64,000 bases of DNA from Candidatus Cloacimonadota bacterium (GCA_028695495.1 JAQVIX010000002.1:1-64000), one strand, 5' to 3'. Shown: positions 6,405-57,891, counted from the first letter of the stretch. The notes: generated from the sequence alone by a model not told the origin. A program made the numbers and translations.

Positions 6405-8875
6405 TACTGCTTGATAAGTGCTAATTTGCCTCGCATAGTATTGCCCTTATCATCCATAATGGCAAAGTAATAGATGCCGCTGGCTACCAGATTCCCAGCC
6501 TTATTTCTGCCGTCCCATTCAAAGCGGGAAAAGAGGTTTTCCTTTAGCTCCTGGATCAAAAGCCCGCTGGCGCTATAGATGCGACATTCGTTTTTGCCTT
6601 TGGGCATGCTGTCGCTGGGCAAGTTCACAAGCTGTACGGTGCTTTTGCCATTGGCGTAAAAGGGATTGGGAAAGGCTTTTACTTCGTTTAACTGGCTGTT
6701 TGGCTTTATGCTACGCCCAATCCTTAAGGTGTTTAGCCCATCGGGAGTGCCTATCAGCAGTTTGCCGTCCAGGGGATCGTAGCCCAGCGAGATAATGCGG
6801 TCGGCAAGTAGCGGACTATTATCTTTGTAATAACTGGTAAAGCGCTCCGTTACAGGGTCATACATCGTTATCCCATGGTCATAGCTACCCACCCAGATTC
6901 TACCAAAGGGATCGCCATAGATGGAGTTTGGCACGGTGGTAAAGCTGCCCCAAAGCCGCTCTTCATCCTCATAGTAAAGGGTTTCGTTTACCCATTCATT
7001 GCGCTCAAAGGAATATTTCAGGCGTTTGATATTGATGTCGTAGCGATACCAATCCTCTTCGTCCCACATATACAGCCCAGAACCGGAGGCGATGAAGTGA
7101 TACCAACCGGCATAAGGGGTTTTGGTGCTTGCCACGCCGTAGATGGTGCCGCTATTCAATTCTGGCGGCATATTCGTTTCCCATAGTGCACCGTCTGTTT
7201 CGGGGATGCTGTCGTGTTTCCAGATACTTAGCCCGTTATCGTATTCGGTGCCAAAGAAGTATTGTCTGCCATTGTGGTAAGCGTTTAATACCCGCTGGGA
7301 GTTGCTATTCTTAAGGGTAAAATCACGTATTTTGGTGAAATCAGGGGCAATTACGCTTACACCATCGTCGTAGCACAATACCAGCATATTGCCGTGAAGG
7401 TCGCGATGGATGCCGTGCACGGTATTGCCCAAAATCTTTGGAGTATTGGGGAGATAATCGGTATATTGCACCCAACCGCTGAGGTCATAATCCTGTACGC
7501 CGCGTTTGGTAAGGCGCAGCCATTTGTCATCTGCCTCGTCGTAAATACACACGGCATTGAACCAGCCATTGTCTGCCGGCTCGGAGTCCCAGGTGCCAAA
7601 CCACATTCTGCCCTGCGTATCTTCCGTTACTTGCAGGATGTTATCCGAATGCAGTGGGCTATTGTGGATATTGAAGGTATGCCAGTCGCTGCGGTTATAG
7701 CGGCTTACGCCCAGCGTGCCCTTGGGCACCATCTGATGCCCGATATTGCCGCTGGAAAACCACAGATCATTCCGGCTATCACTATAGCTAAAGCTTATTC
7801 TGGGAAAGCCGATGCTTACGGGGTTATATACCAGCCAATTGTCATCTTCCCAGCGGGCAATGCCTTCGCCCCAGGTGCAAAGGTAAATCTGCCCGTCATA
7901 TTCCTGTATGTTGGCGATGCTGGCAATGCCCAAACCCGCTTCATTTTCACGGAAATAGCGTATATCATCGCCGGGGGATACACTTACCAAAAGCGAGTCC
8001 GAATCCCGTTCATAGCGAAAGCGGCTGTGGTCCCAGCGTCCGTTGGCAATCCATAGCATGCCGTCCGATGCCATCAGGATTTGCGATATATCCTTTATGT
8101 GTTCTCGCTCCAATACTATTTCCTGCCAGGTGTTTGCGCTTATTTCTTTGGTAAATACACGTCCTGAGGAGGCTATCGCCATCTTGTCTCTATTTAGCGA
8201 AAAACAGTAAGGTGCTATTATCGGAGGCAGTCCGGCGGCATCATCGCCCAATTTATGCCAGCTGCTATCTACATCCAGGGAGTCGATATGCACGTAGTTT
8301 ATTCCCGCTTCGGTATTTAGATACAGCAGTTTATCTTCCGTTAAGTGCATCTCCAATACATTGTCGTGCAAAAGTGCATCGTGAGTATTATAGCGGGTAT
8401 ATTGGTTTAGCATCAGCGGGAAATTGATGCCAGAGAGGTAGCTATAGCTCGCCAGCCCCTGCGTGGTGGCTACCAGGATAGTGTTGCCATATTCCAGGAT
8501 GGCGTTTATGGAAAGCGAGGGTAAGCCTAATTCCAGGTTCAGGTTTTGCACTCCGGCATCGCTTACAATGCTGATGCCATCATTGCGCGAACCCAGCCAG
8601 AGCCGCTCGCTTCCTTCTATCTTTGCTAGGCGGTAGATGTCGTTCGATACTATCCCCTCGCCGGTATTGATGTGCTTTAGCTCCTTTAGCTCATTAAAAG
8701 GCAGGCTCTCCGCCCCTTGCAGCTTCAGCACTCCGCCCCAGCTACAGATATAGATATCATCACCTTCTTTTTCCAAATAGTAGCTGTGGTTAGTATTGTT
8801 TATCGTTCCCCAATTCTGCGCCGCCAAAGCGCTTAAGCTAAGTATTATTAGCAGGATAAAGTATGTCTTCTTCAT
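6404..8875 (-). CDS. Secreted beta-propeller protein with C-terminal sorting domain
   Basis: An 823-residue protein with an N-terminal signal peptide (hydrophobic residues 4-18, then AAQN). The body has repeated blades of the two-component-regulator propeller type, for example LWLGSRNDG, MLWIANG, LWFSSG, RMWFGTWD, RIWVGSYDHG and LLIGTPDG. The last 90 residues are a FlgD/Ig-like fold beginning AFPNPF and ending in a basic stretch, typical of secretion and sorting tails in FCB bacteria (type IX-like). Unlike classical two-component propeller proteins it has no kinase domain, so a surface or periplasmic binding role is more likely than signalling. It overlaps the upstream WecA-like gene by 4 bases and aroB by 1. 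Its exact function is unknown. Confidence 0.85.
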   Translation of the reverse strand: MKKTYFILLIILSLSALAAQNWGTINNTNHSYYLEKEGDDIYICSWGGVLKLQGAESLPFNELKELKHINTGEGIVSNDIYRLAKIEGSERLWLGSRNDGISIVSDAGVQNLNLELGLPSLSINAILEYGNTILVATTQGLASYSYLSGINFPLMLNQYTRYNTHDALLHDNVLEMHLTEDKLLYLNTEAGINYVHIDSLDVDSSWHKLGDDAAGLPPIIAPYCFSLNRDKMAIASSGRVFTKEISANTWQEIVLEREHIKDISQILMASDGMLWIANGRWDHSRFRYERDSDSLLVSVSPGDDIRYFRENEAGLGIASIANIQEYDGQIYLCTWGEGIARWEDDNWLVYNPVSIGFPRISFSYSDSRNDLWFSSGNIGHQMVPKGTLGVSRYNRSDWHTFNIHNSPLHSDNILQVTEDTQGRMWFGTWDSEPADNGWFNAVCIYDEADDKWLRLTKRGVQDYDLSGWVQYTDYLPNTPKILGNTVHGIHRDLHGNMLVLCYDDGVSVIAPDFTKIRDFTLKNSNSQRVLNAYHNGRQYFFGTEYDNGLSIWKHDSIPETDGALWETNMPPELNSGTIYGVASTKTPYAGWYHFIASGSGLYMWDEEDWYRYDINIKRLKYSFERNEWVNETLYYEDEERLWGSFTTVPNSIYGDPFGRIWVGSYDHGITMYDPVTERFTSYYKDNSPLLADRIISLGYDPLDGKLLIGTPDGLNTLRIGRSIKPNSQLNEVKAFPNPFYANGKSTVQLVNLPSDSMPKGKNECRIYSASGLLIQELKENLFSRFEWDGRNKAGNLVASGIYYFAIMDDKGNTMRGKLALIKQ

Positions 8876-9909
8876 GGTTTTTGTCCTTTGCGCATCAAAA
8901 GATAAGCTATTATTACCGCCATTGCCAAAAGCAGCAGCAGTAGCGAAAAGAGCACCTTCTTATCGGTAAAAGAAAAGCCGATAGCGATAAGCCCAAATAA
9001 AAAGGTAATGAAATAAACGATGCCGGCAATGCTCTTTTGCGAGAGTCCAAAGGCGAGCATGGTGTGATGGATATGTGCTTTATCGGCACTCATGATCTTG
9101 CCCACGCGGATGCGGCGAAAGATGGCTAAGAGTATATCCAAAAAGGGGATAGCCAACGCTGCGAGGGGGATGATCAGGGTCATGGAAGTAATGCCCTTAA
9201 ATTGGGATACTCCTGCCGTGGAGATGGCAGCGATATTTAGGGCGATATACTGCGCTCCCGTTTCGCCCAGGAAGATCTTGGCGGGATGGAAGTTATAGCG
9301 CAAAAAGCCCAAGAGGCCGGCAAAGAGGAAGCTGGAAAGGCTTATTACCAGCAGATGCTGTTCCAGGATGCCTACTGTAAGCAGCACCAGCGCCACGATG
9401 GCGGAGATGCCCGCTGCAAGACCGTCCATGCCGTCAATAAGGTTTATGGCATTGATTACCACCACATACCAAAGCACCGTTATCGGAAAGGAGAGCCAGC
9501 CCAGGATCAAGTGCTCGCCCAGGGGGTTGGTAAGGTATTGCACTCGGTAGCCAATGATATACATGATGATGCCCAGGATAATCTGCCAGATAAGTTTATA
9601 GCGCGCGGGGGTTTCAAAGCGGTCGTCCAATAGCCCAAAGGTAAGCGCCAATACACTCACTGCCGAGAGATCGAAATACAGGCGGCTTATCTCCTGCCCG
9701 CGGGTAAAGAGCGCCAAGAGCACCTGCACCAGGATGATGGGCAGGGCAAAGGAGAGGCCTCCCGCTTCCGGCGTGCTCACCTTGTGGATGCGCCGCTCAT
9801 TGGGATGGGCGATAATGCCGTGCATGATGGAAAAGTGCATATTCAGCGGCACCAAAAGCAGTGTGGCGATAAAGATAAATAGCGCAGCAAGGATAATGAT
9901 AGTGGTCAT
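8872..9909 (-). CDS. WecA/MraY-family undecaprenyl-phosphate sugar-1-phosphate transferase
   Basis: A 345-residue polytopic membrane protein with about ten hydrophobic segments. Family motifs are present: LLDDR near 93, NAINLIDGMDGLAAG around 150-164 and DKAHIHHTML near 270. These enzymes move HexNAc-1-phosphate from a UDP-sugar to undecaprenyl phosphate, the first membrane step of O-antigen, teichoic-acid or exopolysaccharide synthesis. The HIHH motif and the lack of peptidoglycan genes nearby favour WecA/TagO over MraY. It overlaps its upstream GT4 gene and downstream propeller gene by 4 bases each, which places it in a polysaccharide operon. The sugar it uses cannot be read from the sequence. 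Confidence 0.9.
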   Translation of the reverse strand: MTTIIILAALFIFIATLLLVPLNMHFSIMHGIIAHPNERRIHKVSTPEAGGLSFALPIILVQVLLALFTRGQEISRLYFDLSAVSVLALTFGLLDDRFETPARYKLIWQIILGIIMYIIGYRVQYLTNPLGEHLILGWLSFPITVLWYVVVINAINLIDGMDGLAAGISAIVALVLLTVGILEQHLLVISLSSFLFAGLLGFLRYNFHPAKIFLGETGAQYIALNIAAISTAGVSQFKGITSMTLIIPLAALAIPFLDILLAIFRRIRVGKIMSADKAHIHHTMLAFGLSQKSIAGIVYFITFLFGLIAIGFSFTDKKVLFSLLLLLLAMAVIIAYLLMRKGQKP

Positions 9910-11012
9910 GATGGCGTTTCCCCTTCATACAGCGCGCGATAGCCATCCACCATGCGCCCGTAATCGCAGAGTTCTTTCACCTTCTTAAGCGCCTTTTGCC
10001 CTTTCTGGCGCGCTATTTCCTTATCCGAGGCAATCCCTGTAAGCCCTTGGATAAAAGCCCTTTCATCGTCCAGAGGCAAAATCCAGCCCACCTCGCTATC
10101 CACAAGCTCGCGGATGGAAGGGATATCCGAACCGATCACCGGCAAAGCTGCCTGCATGGCTTCGATAATGCTAAAGGGCATGGCTTCCCAGCGCGAATAG
10201 AGGATGAAGGCATCGAATACCGCCAGCCAGGGGCTTACCTCGCTATCCCAGCCCGGCAGCAGGATGCGCTCACTAAGGCGATAGCTCTCTACTATGCTCT
10301 TGCACAAGGCGTAATGCTCGCCATCACCCAGTATAATGAACTTGAGAGTAGGGCATAGGCGGCAGGCTTTGCAGATACCGGTAATTAGATTGATTACATT
10401 CTTCTGCGTGGAAAAGCGGATGGTGCTGCCGATTACGAAGCTCTCTTCGTCCTTTTTTGCGGTGGGGGATAGCCTTAGCTCTTTCTGCGCATTGTAGATG
10501 GTGAATGCCTTTTCCCTCGGCAAAAGCCCTAATTTCAGGGACTTGATGCGGTCGCTGTTATTTACAAATACGGCATAATCCCCCGCCCAGTGCCCCAGCC
10601 TTTCCATCTGTTCGTAAAACTTCTGCACGATCTGCTTTTGATGCGGCTGAAAGGCGGTGCCATGCGAGGTAAAGAGGATGAGCGGCACCCTTGCCAAGCG
10701 TGCTGCCAGCCTGCCCAAAAGCCCCGGTTTGGAGCTATTGGTATGGATGATATCTATCTTATGTCGCTTTAATAGCCAATATATTTCGATAAAGCTAAGC
10801 AGATCCAAAGGCGAGATGGCATGCCTAAATGTATATATGGGAATGAACTGCCAGCCGCGCTCTTTTACCGCAGCTACGAACTCGCCGCCCGCTTTGCCTG
10901 CAACAAAGATCTCGTATTCATTCTCCGGCAATCCCTCCAAAAGATGCAGGGAAAAGCGCTGCACTCCGCTCATTAGCGGAAGGAGTTGCAGGTGCAGAAG
11001 GCGCTTTTTCAT
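9906..11012 (-). CDS. GT4-family glycosyltransferase
   Basis: A 368-residue retaining glycosyltransferase of the GT-B fold. The N-terminal half has the acceptor-side Rossmann pattern (a Gly-Val-Gln motif near residues 15-20 and DIIHTNSSKPG near 90-100). The C-terminal half has the nucleotide-sugar site, including IGSTIRFSTQKN and the E-x7-E type motif EAMPFSIIEAM near 270-280. It probably adds a sugar to the lipid carrier on the cytoplasmic face. Its start directly abuts the upstream gene's stop and it overlaps the WecA-like gene by 4 bases. Donor and acceptor are unknown. Confidence 0.88.
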   Translation of the reverse strand: MKKRLLHLQLLPLMSGVQRFSLHLLEGLPENEYEIFVAGKAGGEFVAAVKERGWQFIPIYTFRHAISPLDLLSFIEIYWLLKRHKIDIIHTNSSKPGLLGRLAARLARVPLILFTSHGTAFQPHQKQIVQKFYEQMERLGHWAGDYAVFVNNSDRIKSLKLGLLPREKAFTIYNAQKELRLSPTAKKDEESFVIGSTIRFSTQKNVINLITGICKACRLCPTLKFIILGDGEHYALCKSIVESYRLSERILLPGWDSEVSPWLAVFDAFILYSRWEAMPFSIIEAMQAALPVIGSDIPSIRELVDSEVGWILPLDDERAFIQGLTGIASDKEIARQKGQKALKKVKELCDYGRMVDGYRALYEGETPS

Positions 11013-12674
11013 CTATTGTACCAGGCGAATTACTGCCACGGATTCCGCCTTAACGTTCTTAAAGTGCAGGGTATTGCCATCTATTTTGGCGCTGATACCA
11101 TCGATCTCGCGCACCTTCTGCTCTCCTTGAATATGCAGGGCAAAGCTTGGCAAATCATCTGGAAAATATACCCTTATCTCATATTCCCCTTCTTGTATGG
11201 TAACCCGCGCCCGCTTTTCCCACCAATCCGCAATCTCCAGCGGCGTAGCGTTCCAGGCATTGGAGCTACTTATCAAAGCTAAGAAGTATGAATAGAGGTT
11301 TTGGGCATAGCGGATGTCGTGATATGCCGCCAGGGAGAAATCCAGAGAAAAGATGCCATGCGTGGTTTTACTCACCTTTTGGAAATAGCGTTTAAGCTCG
11401 GATTTGGCATGGTCCAGCGTCATGAGCTTACGTTTATTGATGTGTAAGTAATTATCCCGAAACACACTGGGCAGTATCAGGTAAGAAGCCTTGCCATTGA
11501 TATAAGGATGGTAGGGGAAGCTACAGGAATTGTAAAAGCCCGGCGCTTCCTTGAAAGCGGTGCTAATGCTGTATTTAGGCTCTATTTTATCCTGCAATTC
11601 CATGATTTCCAGGTTCCAGGTATAGCCATATTGCTTTATGCCCAGCTCGCTACGCGCAAGCTGATGCAGCATCACCTGTTTTTGGCGCAGCATCTCATCC
11701 CGCGTAAGTTTATCATTACTAAGGATCAAGCCTATCTCGCAGCCCTCGTTTAGGCAGGCTTGAATCTCTTCCTGCAAATCCGGGTCTTCCAGCGAATAAT
11801 CTATATCCTCGCCTTTCTCCACCGCCAGATAAAAGCAACTGCGGCAGTTATTTTCCTTTTCCAGCCGGCGGTATTCCTCAAAGTTCCAGTACAATTCATA
11901 ATTCGTAAAGATATACTGCATTTGCCCCTTGAGATTGTGGAAAAGCTGTTGCAGCTTAAGGGTAAACAGCAAACCGAGATTATCCACCAGCGAGAGAATC
12001 AGCGAGCTGGCATTCCATTTTTGCAGGTTTTCCACACTGTGGCATAGCATTAGCGCACAGCTCTCATTTTTTGGCCACAATGCCTTTTGCGCCAGAGGGA
12101 TACGCTGTGTGCGGGCATGTTCTTTGAGCATGGATTCTATCAGCCATAGCATGCTATCCACCGCCGGAGAATCCCGATGCGGATAAAAGGCGCTATTTTC
12201 ATCTATAAAGCGTTCGTTGCCCTTCGCCCCCGGCTGCATAATCTGCTCTGCCTGCGAGAGATGAAAATAGATATTGCCCACCACGTCGATATTGATCTTC
12301 CCGCCGCAGGTATCGCTATCGATGTAGTTCTCTGCCGCATGGTTAAAGGGTCTGGCAGTAATTACTTGCGTGGGATACAGCAGCTTTAGTTCGCGCATAT
12401 TGCGGCGCAATCTCTCCGGATTGTAAGATACGCGCTCATATAGCTCCATCTCGCAGATGATAAAGATGGTGATCAGTTTCTTAGCAAGGTCTTTTACACT
12501 CTTTTCATCCGGCTCTGTGGGGCTATAAATGATGAAGATATCGTTCTGCTTCAGCTCATCTATATTATTGATAAAACGATAGGCATAGCCCCGGTTATCG
12601 AAAATGTAGCGGAAGCTGAACTTAATCTCGTTCATAAAGTGCTGCAATTTATTATCTATAAGGATAGCGATCAT
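11013..12674 (-). CDS. NodB-like (polysaccharide deacetylase-related) protein
   Basis: A 553-residue protein, first gene of the minus-strand envelope operon. Residues 1-140 form an N-terminal domain of the type often seen before deacetylase-like domains. The middle (about 205-430) resembles NodB-type proteins of polysaccharide clusters, with the 'fall in residues CALMLCHSVENLQKWNAS' start region and a CEIGLILSNDKL segment in the position where deacetylases have a Gly-His-Glu-Ile-Gly-like motif. The usual catalytic Asp and His residues are not evident, so it may be inactive or act as a binding protein. The C-terminal 70 residues look beta-rich and may bind carbohydrate. The stop directly abuts the GT4 start. 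Function is inferred only from fold resemblance and context. Confidence 0.6.
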   Translation of the reverse strand: MIAILIDNKLQHFMNEIKFSFRYIFDNRGYAYRFINNIDELKQNDIFIIYSPTEPDEKSVKDLAKKLITIFIICEMELYERVSYNPERLRRNMRELKLLYPTQVITARPFNHAAENYIDSDTCGGKINIDVVGNIYFHLSQAEQIMQPGAKGNERFIDENSAFYPHRDSPAVDSMLWLIESMLKEHARTQRIPLAQKALWPKNESCALMLCHSVENLQKWNASSLILSLVDNLGLLFTLKLQQLFHNLKGQMQYIFTNYELYWNFEEYRRLEKENNCRSCFYLAVEKGEDIDYSLEDPDLQEEIQACLNEGCEIGLILSNDKLTRDEMLRQKQVMLHQLARSELGIKQYGYTWNLEIMELQDKIEPKYSISTAFKEAPGFYNSCSFPYHPYINGKASYLILPSVFRDNYLHINKRKLMTLDHAKSELKRYFQKVSKTTHGIFSLDFSLAAYHDIRYAQNLYSYFLALISSSNAWNATPLEIADWWEKRARVTIQEGEYEIRVYFPDDLPSFALHIQGEQKVREIDGISAKIDGNTLHFKNVKAESVAVIRLVQ

Positions 12675-12890: not shown

Positions 12891-14153
12891 ATGCTCTTTA
12901 TCCTATTTATTCTACTCCTGATGCCCGCCGCCCTCTTTGGTTATTTGGATCCCGGCTCCGGAGCAGTACTGATCAATTTGCTCATTACCGCTGCTGCCGC
13001 CCTGCTTTACTCCCTCAAAGGTCTGTTTTTCAGGCTTTTGGGTAAAAAGCAAGCAGCGCAGCCCAAACGGCAAGATATCCAGCTTGCATTACTTAGCGAA
13101 GGAAAGAACTACCGCCTTAGTTTCCAGCCGCTTATCGAAGCGCTGACAGCGCGGGAAATCCATTTTGCCTATTATACACTGGATATCGAAGACCCCTTGC
13201 TGAAAATAGATAACCCCTTCTGCCACAATCGCTTTTTAGGCTTTGGCGCCTTGGGCAAATACCGCGCCAGCAATCTCAAAGAAGCTTTGCTGCTTTCTAC
13301 CACTCCCAATATCTCCTGCGCCGGCTACCCCATCAAGCGTTCGCCCCATACGCATAAATTGATCCACTTTTTCCATTCGTTGATCGATCTATCCATGTAT
13401 AGAAAAGGCTCTTTGGATTTTTACGATGCAGTTATCCTGCCCGGAGATTACCACATCGCGCCCATCCGGCATTTGGAAAAACTGCGGGGCTTAAAAGAGA
13501 AAGAGCTTATCTCGCTGGGCGCACCTTATCTGGATTTATTGGCGGAAGAGAAGGCAGCGCAAACGTCGATTAAGCGGGAGAAATGCCTGCTTGTCGCCAG
13601 CTCCTGGGGAGATAAGGGGCTTTTAACTTATTGCGGGATAGAACCTTTCCTGCCTTTAGCGGAGAAGGGCTGGGAGCTTATTATCCGTCCACATCCGCAA
13701 GACCTTAAAAAATCCCCGGAATTGATTCTGAAGCTGCAGAAACAAAGCGCAGCCAAACCCAATATCATCTGGGATTTTGCCCTCTCCGGCGCTCAAAGCA
13801 TGCAAAAAGCCAGCCTGATGCTTTCGGATACCTCGTCCATCCGCTTCGATTTTGCCTTTCTCTATGAAAAGCCGGTACTTAGCCTGGAAATACCCGCCGT
13901 TGCCATGCCCGGTTTTGAGCGAGATGATTTGTCGGAAATCTGGAGCGAAGGCGCAGCACAAGAGATTGGTATGGTTATAGATAGTGAAACGCTGAGGCAA
14001 GACCCAGAAGGATATTTACTCCAAACTCTGCAAAGCTTTGATGCTGCGCGCATTCGTAGCTACCGGCATGCGTTGGTAAGGCATTTTGGTACAGCGGCAT
14101 CCGCCATTGTGGATTACCTTGCCTTAGAATTAGAGTCTCTTAAATCCCTATAA
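12891..14153 (+). CDS. TagB/TagF-like (CDP-glycerol glycerophosphotransferase-related) membrane-anchored protein
   Basis: A 420-residue protein. It starts with a hydrophobic segment, the motif YLDPGSG at 18-24 and a second membrane segment at about 27-48. The rest resembles PF04464-type glycerophosphotransferases: LVASSWGDKG, a RPHPQD motif near 265, and LSDTSSIRFDFAFLYEKPV near 310, which match the conserved His-Pro and Asp-x-Ser-Ser regions that bind CDP-glycerol or the acceptor. Such enzymes transfer glycerol phosphate to lipid-linked glycans. The AAAGGAGAGCC ribosome site fixes the start. It is followed after 9 bases by the YidC-phosphatase fusion, so the two probably act on the same phosphopolymer. 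A related capsule enzyme using another CDP-alcohol is possible. Confidence 0.78.
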   Translation: MLFILFILLLMPAALFGYLDPGSGAVLINLLITAAAALLYSLKGLFFRLLGKKQAAQPKRQDIQLALLSEGKNYRLSFQPLIEALTAREIHFAYYTLDIEDPLLKIDNPFCHNRFLGFGALGKYRASNLKEALLLSTTPNISCAGYPIKRSPHTHKLIHFFHSLIDLSMYRKGSLDFYDAVILPGDYHIAPIRHLEKLRGLKEKELISLGAPYLDLLAEEKAAQTSIKREKCLLVASSWGDKGLLTYCGIEPFLPLAEKGWELIIRPHPQDLKKSPELILKLQKQSAAKPNIIWDFALSGAQSMQKASLMLSDTSSIRFDFAFLYEKPVLSLEIPAVAMPGFERDDLSEIWSEGAAQEIGMVIDSETLRQDPEGYLLQTLQSFDAARIRSYRHALVRHFGTAASAIVDYLALELESLKSL

Positions 14154-14162
14154 ATATAGATT

Positions 14163-16715
14163 ATGAATATACTGTTAGTCCTCTTTCTCATCTCGCTGGG
14201 CACCTCGATCTTGCTGCAGGTCTTGAACTGGCTATTCAGGGCAATACCGGCGCGGGAAGCGCAGGTGCAAGCGCTATTGGCTCCGCAACTTGCCGAATTG
14301 CGCAGGCAATATCGCGGCATGGAATACCAAGCCAAAGAGCGCGCCATTTTCCGCCGCTACCGCTATCATCCCATCCTCGCTTTACGCAGCGCTTTACCGC
14401 TCTTTTTCCAGCTTCCTTTCCTCTTTGCCGCATTTCGCATTATTAGCCGCATGCCTGCTTTGGAAGGGCAAAGCCTGGGCTTTATCCTGAATCTGGCAGC
14501 GCCGGATAGCTTGATCCTGGGCTACAATATCCTGCCTTTTGTAATGACCGGCATCAACCTGCTTACCGCCTTGCTCAATCCGGATTTCCGCCTGCGGGAA
14601 AAGCTACAGGCTATCTTTATCGCCCTCATCTTTTTGGCTATTCTTTACAATGCACCCGCTGCGCTACTCATCTATTGGAGCTTTAATAACCTCTTTTTCC
14701 TGTTGCGCACCCTTGTTAATCGCTTGCGCTATAGAGGCAAAGAGCGTCTCGCCGATCCGCTTTGGGAGAGCTTCTGCCAAGCCCTGCCGAAGTATTTAGA
14801 AGGCGTAGCCCTACCCTTTTTGCTGCTCATCGTGTTTGCCAATCTCCTGGAATATTTAGCCGATGGTGAAGGGCTGTATTTTTACCGCTTTTCCAAAACC
14901 GTGCCGCTAATGTTTGCCAGCGCAGCGCTTTACTTCCTCTTAAACTGGCGGGATAAGGGAAGCCGGCGCTACAAATGGGGGCAGATGGCGGGGATATTGC
15001 CTCTGCTAAGTGCGGCTCTTTTACACCTCAGCGGCATCCACCCCTTTCCCAGCCAACGTTATGTGATATTTGCTTATCTTTGTGGAGCTTACCTCGTTTT
15101 GGCATTCATCTTGAGCATAATCCAAAGCTTGATTCCCAATTCCGCACCCCAAACCGCTCACAAGAGCTTGCAGCCGCGCCCCTCTTTCTGGCAGAATGCC
15201 TTGTTGGTATTCATTTTAGGTCTCATCCCCTCGCTGCATTTGGCGGCGGTGAACCCCATGTATCTCAATGGCTGGTTTTATCCCCTCTTTCTGCTTTTAC
15301 CTTTCCTGCTTATCGGCTTGGCATATTTGCTTTTAAGCCTCTTTAGCCGGCTCTGGCGCTCAGCAAAAGGCAGCTTTCCGCCGCTGGCATATTCGCTTGT
15401 CTTTACCGCACTCTTTTTCTATCTGCCGGTATTTCGGGCGATGATGCAAAAGAATAGTGCCCATGATGGCGACTTTTGGCTGTTGCTTTTAGGAACGCTC
15501 AGCCTTGTTTGGTTCTTTAGCCAAAAACAAGGTAATAAGGAACTTAGCACATCTGCACGCCAGCCCTTAGCGCGCCCATTTTATGTATTTCGCGCGCTAT
15601 TAATCGTCTTTTTCATCTTATCCGCCTTCAATTTCGGTAGTTCCATTTTGCAAGGTGAAAAGCCTTCGCAGCGTAAATTGCAGGAGATTCCGCCCTTTTT
15701 AGCCATGCTCTCGCTTAAAGAGCTGCCAAATATCTATCTCTTTGTATATGATGGGGTTCCGAACCCACGGGTGTTTCGCGAACAGGGCTTACCTCTGGAC
15801 AAGCTGGAAGCACTATTTGAACGCTATAACTATACCCTGTATGAAGATACTTATACTCTGGGCAATGAAAGCCTGAATAGCATGGCAATGACGCTGAATA
15901 TCACCGGCGAAGAACCCGCCTCACAAAGCAAAATGCAGGATATCTATAGCGGCAATTCGCTGATCAATCTCTTTTTGCGCCAGCACGGATATAGCAGCTA
16001 CAATCTCTTAGAAAACTATTTTACCGGCACTTACGCCATGATAAATGAAGACCTCATTACCGAGTATTATCCGCCCAAAGAGCTATCGGATGTGCAGTCC
16101 GACTTTTTCCTTACTCTCCTGCGGGGGGTAATGCAAGGGGAGTTTCGCTTTGATACCAAAGGAATTATGGCAGAAGACCGCCATACTGAAGACGATCGTC
16201 AAAACCGCAAGCACGAGCTAATCCGCGATCAGGTAAGCCCGAAGTTTGTAATCGATCAAGTTTCAAAACCCAGCCATTCGCAAAACTCCGGCAAATGCCT
16301 GCCAAACGAGACCGAACTTTGGATAGAGCGCTTTGAGGAAGCTATGGTGTATTTGGCAAATGATCTCAAAGCGCTTTCTGAACATGATCCCAATGCCATT
16401 GCCATCTTTATCGGCGATCACGGTCCCTCGCTTTTGGGAGATTGCTATGTGTTGCAAAACTATAAACGCGAGGAGATTACGGCAGAATTGATCTGGGATA
16501 GAATCGGCACCATGGTCGCCATTCACTGGCCGGATGCCACGCGCGCCCGCAAATACGACCAAAATCTTACCGTAAATCAAGACCTCTTTGCCGTAATCCT
16601 GGCATATTTGGCAGATGACCCCAAACCCTTGCAGCTTATGCCAGATCGCAGCTTTAGCGGCTATGGTTTGCTCACCCGCCCGCCCATCCATTTTAAGGAA
16701 GGGAAGGTGTTTTAA
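14163..16715 (+). CDS. YidC/Oxa1-like domain fused to LTA-synthase-type phosphatase domain
   Basis: An 850-residue membrane protein with three parts. Residues 1-190 look like the YidC/Oxa1 membrane core: a first membrane segment, a charged amphipathic stretch (APQLAELRRQYRG from 40), then PLFFQLPFLFAAFRI at 79-93, LAAPD at 111-115 and NAPAALLIYWSFNNLFFLLR at 163-182. Residues about 215-505 hold eight or nine further hydrophobic segments. Residues about 515-850 resemble the extracytoplasmic alkaline-phosphatase/sulfatase fold of LtaS and phosphoglycerol transferases: NIYLFVYDG near 522 (metal-binding Asp), GNESLNSMAMTLN near 567 (place of the nucleophile) and FIGDHGPS near 750 (metal-binding Asp-His). 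The first membrane segment has no arginine, unlike the groove Arg of true insertases. I infer a lipid- or polymer-modifying enzyme rather than a general insertase. The gene follows the TagB-like gene by 9 bases with a weak ribosome site. Confidence 0.82.
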   Translation: MNILLVLFLISLGTSILLQVLNWLFRAIPAREAQVQALLAPQLAELRRQYRGMEYQAKERAIFRRYRYHPILALRSALPLFFQLPFLFAAFRIISRMPALEGQSLGFILNLAAPDSLILGYNILPFVMTGINLLTALLNPDFRLREKLQAIFIALIFLAILYNAPAALLIYWSFNNLFFLLRTLVNRLRYRGKERLADPLWESFCQALPKYLEGVALPFLLLIVFANLLEYLADGEGLYFYRFSKTVPLMFASAALYFLLNWRDKGSRRYKWGQMAGILPLLSAALLHLSGIHPFPSQRYVIFAYLCGAYLVLAFILSIIQSLIPNSAPQTAHKSLQPRPSFWQNALLVFILGLIPSLHLAAVNPMYLNGWFYPLFLLLPFLLIGLAYLLLSLFSRLWRSAKGSFPPLAYSLVFTALFFYLPVFRAMMQKNSAHDGDFWLLLLGTLSLVWFFSQKQGNKELSTSARQPLARPFYVFRALLIVFFILSAFNFGSSILQGEKPSQRKLQEIPPFLAMLSLKELPNIYLFVYDGVPNPRVFREQGLPLDKLEALFERYNYTLYEDTYTLGNESLNSMAMTLNITGEEPASQSKMQDIYSGNSLINLFLRQHGYSSYNLLENYFTGTYAMINEDLITEYYPPKELSDVQSDFFLTLLRGVMQGEFRFDTKGIMAEDRHTEDDRQNRKHELIRDQVSPKFVIDQVSKPSHSQNSGKCLPNETELWIERFEEAMVYLANDLKALSEHDPNAIAIFIGDHGPSLLGDCYVLQNYKREEITAELIWDRIGTMVAIHWPDATRARKYDQNLTVNQDLFAVILAYLADDPKPLQLMPDRSFSGYGLLTRPPIHFKEGKVF

Positions 16716-18554: not shown

Positions 18555-19001
18555 ATGAAAGCAAAAATGAAAATGCTGCTCCCCGGTTATACCGGAAACA
18601 TGGATGATGTAGTGGTTTACTACAATTCCAAACTGAACAAAATGATCGTGCGCCGCAAGGTGAAACCCAAAAGATGCGTTTCCACGGCGCATACCACGCT
18701 TATCTTTGCGCTGGCAAGGCGCATTGGGCTTAGCGCTGCCTGGCATCAGGATTGCCAGCGTTATATTGATTTTTACAATGCCAAAAACCGCAAGCAGGGC
18801 AGGGCATTGGCATCCTGGCCTGCTGTTTGGTTAAAACTGATGACGGCACAAACAAAGGCGCGTCCTGATCTGGATTTTGCCGTGCTAAGCCGGCAAGAAC
18901 TAATGCAATTGGATTTGCCTTGTCTTTCAATAGCGGGCAGCGTAGAAGCTGGGTTTTTGGAACCGGTGATGGGCTGGCAAAGCTTGAATGCGCTTGTGTA
19001 A
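18555..19001 (+). CDS. Hypothetical protein, first gene of the boxed operon
   Basis: A 148-residue soluble protein that I do not recognise. The N-terminus has a GYTGNMDDVVVYYNSKLNKM pattern followed by a very basic stretch (RRKVKPKR), and the middle is helical with several Trp residues. The ribosome site AGGAGGG sits 5 bases before the ATG, so translation should be strong. Two boxes shared with the 16765 promoter precede it, and the NodB-like and VanZ-like genes follow on the same strand. No transmembrane segment or signal peptide is visible. The basic stretch could bind nucleic acid or a polyanion, but that is speculation. Confidence 0.65.
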   Translation: MKAKMKMLLPGYTGNMDDVVVYYNSKLNKMIVRRKVKPKRCVSTAHTTLIFALARRIGLSAAWHQDCQRYIDFYNAKNRKQGRALASWPAVWLKLMTAQTKARPDLDFAVLSRQELMQLDLPCLSIAGSVEAGFLEPVMGWQSLNALV

Positions 19002-19805: not shown

Positions 19806-20189
19806 ATGCAAAAACATTATTCCAAACTAATCTGGCTCTGGCTTGTATTTCTGATTTTATTCAATGTGATGCCTTTGGGGAATGCAGATTCATTGAATAA
19901 GAAAAGACTTTTTGAATTACGCTTGGATTACTTCGTCCATAGCATCATCTTTTTGGGCTTTGCCTGGCTCTGGGTCTTTTCCAGAATTATGCGTTTTCAG
20001 TTCTTTGGCAAGCATGAACGCCTGAAATATGCTTTTATCATCATCCTCGCCGGTATCGGGCTGGAATACCTGCAAAAGCTCGTGCCCTGGCGCAGTTTTA
20101 ATCCCATCGATCTCTATTTCAATCTCTTTGGTGCGGGGGTGGCGCTGCTCTTTTTGGCGGTGGGGAGGCGGGAGACTCCTGATCAATAA
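19806..20189 (+). CDS. VanZ-like membrane protein
   Basis: A 127-residue protein with about four hydrophobic segments (residues 8-25, 43-60, 74-90, 104-120). The VanZ family pattern is seen as LDYFVHSIIFLGFAWLW near 43-59 and EYLQKLVPWRSFNPIDLYFN near 88-107, with the conserved Asp/Asn region. VanZ proteins are linked to teicoplanin resistance and envelope maintenance, but most homologues have no known reaction. It is the last gene of the short operon; an R1 copy begins about 100 bases downstream and may end transcription. Confidence 0.85.
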   Translation: MQKHYSKLIWLWLVFLILFNVMPLGNADSLNKKRLFELRLDYFVHSIIFLGFAWLWVFSRIMRFQFFGKHERLKYAFIIILAGIGLEYLQKLVPWRSFNPIDLYFNLFGAGVALLFLAVGRRETPDQ

Positions 20190-57495: not shown

Positions 57496-57891
57496 TCAGT
57501 AGTTATTGCTTTTAATATCGCTTTTGATGATGGTAGATGATATCTGCGGCGTGCGCGGCAGGTATATCACCTTGCAATAGTCTTTTAGATAGTCAAATCG
57601 CCCTTCCCAGTCGTCGCCCATTACCAGAATATCGATCTTATGCTGCTGAATATCCCGAACCTTCTGCTCCCAGTTTTCCTCTGGAATTACCAAATCCACA
57701 TCGCGGATGGCTGCCACGATGGCGGCGCGCTCGTGATAAGGATAAACGCACTTTTTCGCTTTGGTTTGGTTAAACTCATCCGTGGAAACCGCCACCACCA
57801 GAAAGCTTCCCAAAGCCTTGGCGCGCTGGATGATGCGCAGATGCCCCAGGTGAAAGAGGTCGAAGGTGCCGTAGGTAATTACGCGCTTCAT
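57496..57891 (-). CDS. tagD: Glycerol-3-phosphate cytidylyltransferase
   Basis: A 131-residue enzyme of the nucleotidyltransferase family that makes CDP-glycerol from CTP and glycerol-3-phosphate. Signatures are GTFDLFHLGHLRI at 8-20 with the HxGH motif at 14-17 and RTPQISST at 113-120. The length matches Bacillus TagD. It overlaps the ABC exporter gene by 4 bases and leads a run of glycosyltransferases and a TagB-like gene, so CDP-glycerol for a phosphopolymer is strongly suggested. Related ethanolamine-phosphate or other alcohol cytidylyltransferases cannot be excluded. Confidence 0.92.
   Translation of the reverse strand: MKRVITYGTFDLFHLGHLRIIQRAKALGSFLVVAVSTDEFNQTKAKKCVYPYHERAAIVAAIRDVDLVIPEENWEQKVRDIQQHKIDILVMGDDWEGRFDYLKDYCKVIYLPRTPQISSTIIKSDIKSNNY

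Follow-up and report, generated by a model that had tools for sequence, protein, structure and literature searches.

A YidC/Oxa1-like core fused to an alkaline-phosphatase-superfamily domain in Cloacimonadota: a candidate phospho- or phosphono-transferase of the cell envelope

In a 64,000-nucleotide stretch of DNA (hereafter the window) from a Candidatus Cloacimonadota bacterium, a member of a group of uncultured anaerobes, a single gene joins a YidC/Oxa1-like core to a nine-helix membrane module and a predicted extracytoplasmic domain of the alkaline-phosphatase superfamily. We give it roughly an even chance (about 0.5) that this fusion is a phospho- or phosphono-transferase for an envelope glycan or glycolipid, acting with a glycosyltransferase-like (GT) partner, and that a lipid-linked substrate is held or moved by its YidC-like module. 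A transferase role has support in its broad outline, and a YidC fold that presents a lipid or polymer, as proposed in the preliminary description of this DNA, is plausible; the chemistry, the substrate, the direction in which the group moves and the function of the YidC-like core are all inferred from the features described below. A literature search found no earlier description of a YidC-phosphatase fusion.

Architecture and distribution of the fusion

The fusion gene and its three parts are as follows:

14163-16715, plus strand: whole fusion gene, 850 aa, YidC-like core followed by the nine-helix membrane module and the alkaline-phosphatase-superfamily domain, predicted to be extracytoplasmic
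14163-14723, plus strand: YidC/Oxa1-like domain, residues 1-187, assigned by PF02096, by hhalign to E. coli YidC and by alignment with 21 canonical YidCs
14724-15704, plus strand: nine-helix membrane module, residues 188-514, delimited by topology and conservation over the alignment
15705-16712, plus strand: alkaline-phosphatase-superfamily domain, residues 515-850, assigned by PF00884 in 6 of 10 members and by Foldseek

The 850-codon frame contains no internal stop, and the motifs named in the preliminary description were all found, at most one residue away from where it had put them (PLFFQLPF at 79-86, LAAPD at 111-115, YWSFNNLF at 171-178, YDG at 529-531 and GDHG at 751-754). At its N terminus the window copy is about 25 residues shorter than its relatives; the segment that it lacks corresponds to an amphipathic stretch and the beginning of helix 1 (window 14100-14163), and two in-frame stops lie directly upstream of its ATG. 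Across the alignment, hydropathy and charge bias predict about 14 helices, five in the YidC-like part and nine more, and the charge bias places the phosphatase domain outside the membrane. Structure prediction was run with alignments of four sequences each, and the full-length model obtained in this way reached a pLDDT of 40 and a pTM of 0.27, too low to lend support to a YidC fold of residues 1-187 or to a route between the domains.

Eleven copies of the fusion were detected in 10 of 125 Cloacimonadota genomes, covering five genera and two families; the joint occurrence of the two domains across the phylum, a question raised in the preliminary description, is thus real in these 10 genomes and not phylum-wide. 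Although the named sources of the homologues are all metagenome-assembled genomes, the identical in-frame join in 11 copies from 10 independently binned genomes led us to reject an assembly or binning artefact, whose probability we regard as negligible; the sole stop inside a match was found in one genome (G057), near a contig end. Homologues, which according to the preliminary description might have exposed such an artefact, instead carry the join in frame. Among the 125 genomes searched, none was found to encode this subfamily of phosphatase domain separately from a YidC domain (in G010 the contig ends before the YidC part). A search of genome contigs with one protein, which is sensitive to close relatives only, gave matches in Cloacimonadota only, a search of viral contigs yielded no relative, and a plasmid search yielded one YidC-less relative, in Leptolinea.

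A canonical YidC separate from the fusion is encoded in every fusion genome, including that of the window, where the separate yidC considered in the preliminary description lies in the order rnpA-yidD-yidC-jag. The idea that the fusion is the organism's sole YidC was rejected on account of this gene. All three parts of the fusion are under purifying selection. In close pairs dN/dS is lowest in the YidC part (0.06-0.08), intermediate in the phosphatase domain (0.10-0.14) and highest in the helices (0.14-0.17).

A YidC-like domain with a neutral groove

By sequence homology, residues 1-187 are a homologue of the YidC core, as the preliminary description had recognized. Pfam PF02096 (60KD_IMP) matches residues 17-185 with an E value of 1.4e-19 (71 bits against a curated cut-off of 35) and was matched in all ten members of the fusion family, and hhalign aligned the family to E. 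coli YidC with a probability of 96.8% (E 2.3e-10), compared with 0.7% or less for negative controls chosen among unrelated E. coli proteins. The five predicted helices and the C1 hairpin are shared with the YidC/Oxa1/Alb3 insertases (PF02096; for instance E. coli YidC and B. halodurans YidC2, 3WO6), as are the P-L-x-x-Q-x-P and PxxLxxYW signatures. Intact canonical YidCs score 146-220 bits to 60KD_IMP, whereas the second matches over the cut-off in the phylum all proved to be fusions, at 68-88 bits, except for one split canonical gene (G002). The fusion departs from the insertases in that the groove Lys or Arg is absent, Asn occupies the Ser520 position, the C2 loop is shortened, the cytoplasmic C-terminal tail is gone and replaced by nine further helices leading to an enzyme domain, and a canonical paralogue is encoded in the same genome. 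In a tree with canonical YidCs, the fused domains grouped in a single clade with a support of 1.000 and a long stem branch.

The loss of charge concerns the following residue:

14205-14207, plus strand: Ser15, equivalent by alignment of E. coli YidC Arg366

The ten aligned fusions carry S/S/S/S/S/A/G/S/T/S at this position, with neither Lys nor Arg, whereas the canonical Cloacimonadota YidCs carry Lys in 21 of 21 cases and E. coli YidC carries Arg. The absence of Arg from the first membrane segment, already remarked on for the window copy, therefore holds for the whole aligned family. A positive charge in the hydrophilic groove has been described as strictly conserved across the YidC family (PMC8920935). 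The fusions have Asn at the position of E. coli Ser520, where canonical relatives have Phe or Tyr, and Trp at the position of E. coli residue 517. Arg366 of E. coli YidC is dispensable if residue 517 is aromatic or polar (PMC8920935), so that an uncharged groove alone is not enough to decide against insertase activity in the fusion with its Trp; in S. mutans YidC2, which has Trp at the 517-equivalent, the groove charge is essential (PMC8920935). We consider it likely that the YidC-like domain no longer serves as an insertase. The groove of the YidC-like core would be neutral, with Asn, Gln and Tyr/Trp residues still lining it; Q83, N132, N175 and N176 in the helices of the core are invariant.

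The nine-helix module and the phosphatase domain

Within the nine-helix module, the invariant residues H359, N364, Y367, R425, D435, D437 and W439 lie where the later helices reach the outer face, and could mark the place where a lipid-linked substrate reaches the catalytic site. In the domain that follows, the candidate active-site residues are:

15750-15752, plus strand: Asp530 (in YDG), proposed metal ligand, invariant, role assigned from the superfamily
15870-15872, plus strand: Ser570, proposed nucleophile, Ser or Thr in 10 of 10 members, role assigned by its spacing of 40 residues after Asp530
16275-16277, plus strand: His705 in the P[SG]HSQNSG signature, invariant
16416-16421, plus strand: Asp752-His753 (in GDHG), proposed metal ligands, invariant

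By their spacing, Asp530, Ser/Thr570, His705 and Asp752-His753 fit the superfamily pattern of metal ligands and nucleophile, and their roles are assigned on this basis. PF00884 (Sulfatase) matches residues 735-815 with an E value of 2.8e-5 and 24.0 bits, just under the curated cut-off of 25, and was matched at E<=0.01 in 6 of 10 fusion members. The C-terminal domain modelled alone from four sequences gave a structure of low-to-moderate confidence (pLDDT 51, pTM 0.60). When this model was compared with the PDB by Foldseek, all 50 of the matches listed belonged to the alkaline-phosphatase superfamily, with E values of only 4e-3 to 2e-2, and they were spread over YejM/PbgA, EptC, LtaS, LtaP, ENPP/autotaxin and sulfatases. 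Searches with the NCBIfam and Pfam models of LtaS, EptA and OpgB gave no match in the fusion at E<=0.05, and hhalign to EptA was weak (5.2%, with a collinear SDHG block; unrelated E. coli controls, 0.7% or less). The domain had been described as an LTA-synthase-type phosphatase; its place in the alkaline-phosphatase superfamily and its extracytoplasmic side, as predicted from topology, were upheld, whereas the LtaS type was not established, no LtaS family match having been obtained.

The LtaS, EptA-EptC, OpgB and PbgA proteins likewise consist of membrane helices followed by an extracytoplasmic alkaline-phosphatase fold with an Asp, Ser/Thr, His and Asp-His site. The fusion differs from them in its number of predicted helices (about 14, compared with five) and in a signature of its own, P[SG]HSQNSGxCxPNE. 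Its first metal position is Asp, in contrast to Glu in LtaS and EptA.

A partner glycosyltransferase-like gene and its locus

Upstream of the fusion the window contains the following genes:

12891-14153, plus strand: partner GT gene, 420 aa, N-terminal YLDPGSG helix and CDP-glycerol-glycerophosphotransferase-like (PF04464) domain
11013-12674, minus strand: divergent neighbour encoding a 553-aa protein with a weak DUF7033 match, conserved in G038, G039, G045 and G035
9906-11012, minus strand: GT4-family glycosyltransferase, context gene
8872-9909, minus strand: WecA/MraY-type polyprenyl-phosphate sugar-phosphate transferase (PF00953, 2.8e-35)

The partner gene was found in 10 of 10 fusion genomes and, at equal similarity, in none of the 115 others (Fisher p = 6e-15), and it lies directly upstream of the fusion wherever the contig permits. 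PF04464 is weak in the window partner (E 0.025, 14 bits against a cut-off of 22.1) and over the cut-off in the partner of a relative (L042, 30.4 bits). The family is characterized by the YLDPG[ST]G helix and by invariant RPHP and SDTSS-R-FD motifs. The YLDPGSG helix is widespread elsewhere and is not known to have been characterized; a literature search for the YLDPGSG string returned no paper. The slot beside the WecA, GT4 and DUF7033 genes that the GT-fusion pair occupies in the window is shared with two further genomes (G038 and G039).

Phosphonate genes beside the fusion in relatives

A cytidylyltransferase-PEP mutase is encoded in 6 of 10 fusion genomes, compared with 3 of 115 others (p = 3e-6). 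In G003, G014 and G057 the operon order is PepM-Ppd-(ADH)-GT-fusion, and in G010 it is the same up to the contig end. These proteins share the EDKxxxxxNS motif and a CTP_transf_like domain with Fom1, the enzyme that synthesizes CMP-hydroxyethylphosphonate; phosphonates are activated by enzymes of this kind through attachment to CMP (PMC6697681). The domain pair and motif of the Fom1/PntC-type enzymes thus occur beside the fusion in relatives and are absent from the genome assembly of the window. Of the three PEP-mutase loci in genomes that lack the fusion, two adjoin LicD or PF04464 transferases, and this proximity supports the transfer of an activated phosphonate. Taken together, the neighbourhoods of the relatives point to phosphonates at least as much as to glycerol phosphate. 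A PEP mutase with EDKxxxxxNS was found neither in the genome of the window (G000) nor in G038, G039 and G041, and a TagD-type enzyme was not found in G038, G039 and G041 either; both results weigh against a CMP-linked donor. Phosphonate was not retained as the sole substrate, given the four fusion genomes that lack a PEP mutase.

The window also contains a TagD-like glycerol-3-phosphate cytidylyltransferase gene (57496-57891, minus strand), which adjoins an ABC exporter and glycosyltransferases. Of the 125 Cloacimonadota genomes, 17 gave a match to it, and the other nine fusion genomes were not among them; a glycerol-phosphate route through this gene was accordingly rejected as a general explanation.

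At three loci, a PEP mutase, a decarboxylase and an Fe-alcohol dehydrogenase lie beside a LicD protein (L060 662-5494, G119), the same three genes lie beside a PF04464 protein (L059 1610-6256, G080), and a PEP mutase with a phosphonopyruvate decarboxylase occupies the slot that the GT-fusion pair has in the window (L058 9233-12000, G045), the contig ending directly after.

Relatives without the YidC domain

A hypothetical protein of Leptolinea sp. HRD-7 (Chloroflexota; BCY19513.1) aligns to the window protein over residues 347 to 825 with an hhalign probability of 100%. It has no YidC domain and shares the HSQNSGKCLP signature, and no YLDPGSG motif was found within the 25 kb examined around it. 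In another Cloacimonadota family (G070, L088 7548-10334), the gene for a PF04464 enzyme lies 19 bases upstream of one for a membrane and alkaline-phosphatase-superfamily protein. This pair lacks both the YLDPGSG helix and the YidC domain, and its membrane protein matches no Pfam family. In the pairs seen, the helix and the domain are either both present or both absent, which suggests that they may work together.

A proposed mechanism and its alternatives

In the mechanism that we propose, the fusion would be a polytopic inner-membrane phospho- or phosphono-transferase that, together with the enzyme encoded upstream, acts on a glycan or glycolipid of the envelope. That partner enzyme, cytoplasmic and anchored by its YLDPGSG helix, would form the substrate by using a CMP-activated donor to place a phospho- or phosphono-alcohol on a membrane-linked acceptor; in most relatives outside the genus of the window, the donor is probably CMP-hydroxyethylphosphonate supplied by the adjacent PEP-mutase genes. 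This lipid-linked, amphipathic substrate may be held or scrambled by the neutral YidC-like groove and would then travel via the nine-helix module to the active site on the outer face, where Asp530, Ser/Thr570, His705 and Asp752-His753 would pass the group to the final outer acceptor via a covalent enzyme intermediate. Phospholipid scrambling in vitro has been shown for E. coli YidC (PMC10491306), so the family has this ability, and the simplest role for the YidC-like core would be that of a groove accommodating an amphipathic substrate. The most specific form of this proposal, in which an insertase fold has been turned into an in-line lipid-substrate groove or scramblase, so that the YLDPGSG enzyme charges the substrate inside and one polypeptide carries it out, is put forward tentatively, as somewhat less probable than its negation.

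Two other roles for the YidC-like core have to be weighed. It might have kept an insertase or chaperone function dedicated to one client, for example its own nine-helix module or the YLDPGSG helix of the partner, and several observations would suit such a role: the core YidC signature positions are strongly conserved, with the tightest purifying selection in close pairs, and the YLDPGSG helix and the YidC domain occur together in the fusion genomes and are both missing from the G070 pair. We nevertheless consider a specialized insertase unlikely, with the groove charge lost in 10 of 10 aligned fusions, the C2 loop shortened, the tail replaced by helices and a canonical YidC in every fusion genome; moreover, we know of no insertase that is joined to a single enzyme client. 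The argument from charge has its own limit in E. coli, where the groove charge is not always needed (PMC8920935). Equally doubtful in our estimation is a passive anchor or dimerization platform, with the activity residing in the last helices and the phosphatase domain. The relatives in Leptolinea (aligned from residue 347) and G070 do without a YidC domain, and the long stem branch of the fused domains would also be in keeping with a passive element. An anchor, however, would be expected to drift, as the sequence of helices 6-9 of the fusion does, whereas Q83, N132, N175 and N176 are invariant and dN/dS is lowest in the YidC part.

As for the enzyme domain, it might be a phosphatase or a PbgA/YejM-like regulator instead of a transferase. 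PbgA/YejM periplasmic domains were among the top fold matches of the C-terminal domain, and a set of metal ligands cannot by itself tell hydrolases from transferases. On the other hand, the obligate phospho-alcohol-transferase-like partner, the linkage to phosphonate activation and glycan genes, and the conservation of Ser/Thr570 at nucleophile spacing all argue against this assignment, which we hold to be quite improbable.

If the groove reading of the YidC-like core is true, a bacterial YidC homologue would have a role beyond protein insertion. Oxa1-superfamily insertases including E. coli YidC scramble lipids in vitro, which raises the question of physiological use; a YidC domain devoid of the charge, present beside a normal YidC and fused to an enzyme that probably acts on a lipid-linked substrate, would be a natural experiment on scrambling. 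The GT gene and the fusion point to a new two-gene module for phosphate or phosphonate decoration of the envelope, and the YLDPGSG helix gains a candidate partner.

Other genes around the fusion

Downstream of the fusion, the window encodes a 148-aa protein without a Pfam match (18555-19001, plus strand) and a 127-aa VanZ-like membrane protein (19806-20189, plus strand). The former is resembled by a 142-aa protein that adjoins the fusion in G042 (L037 748-1176), and a homologue of the latter adjoins a dehydroquinate-synthase-like gene in G045.
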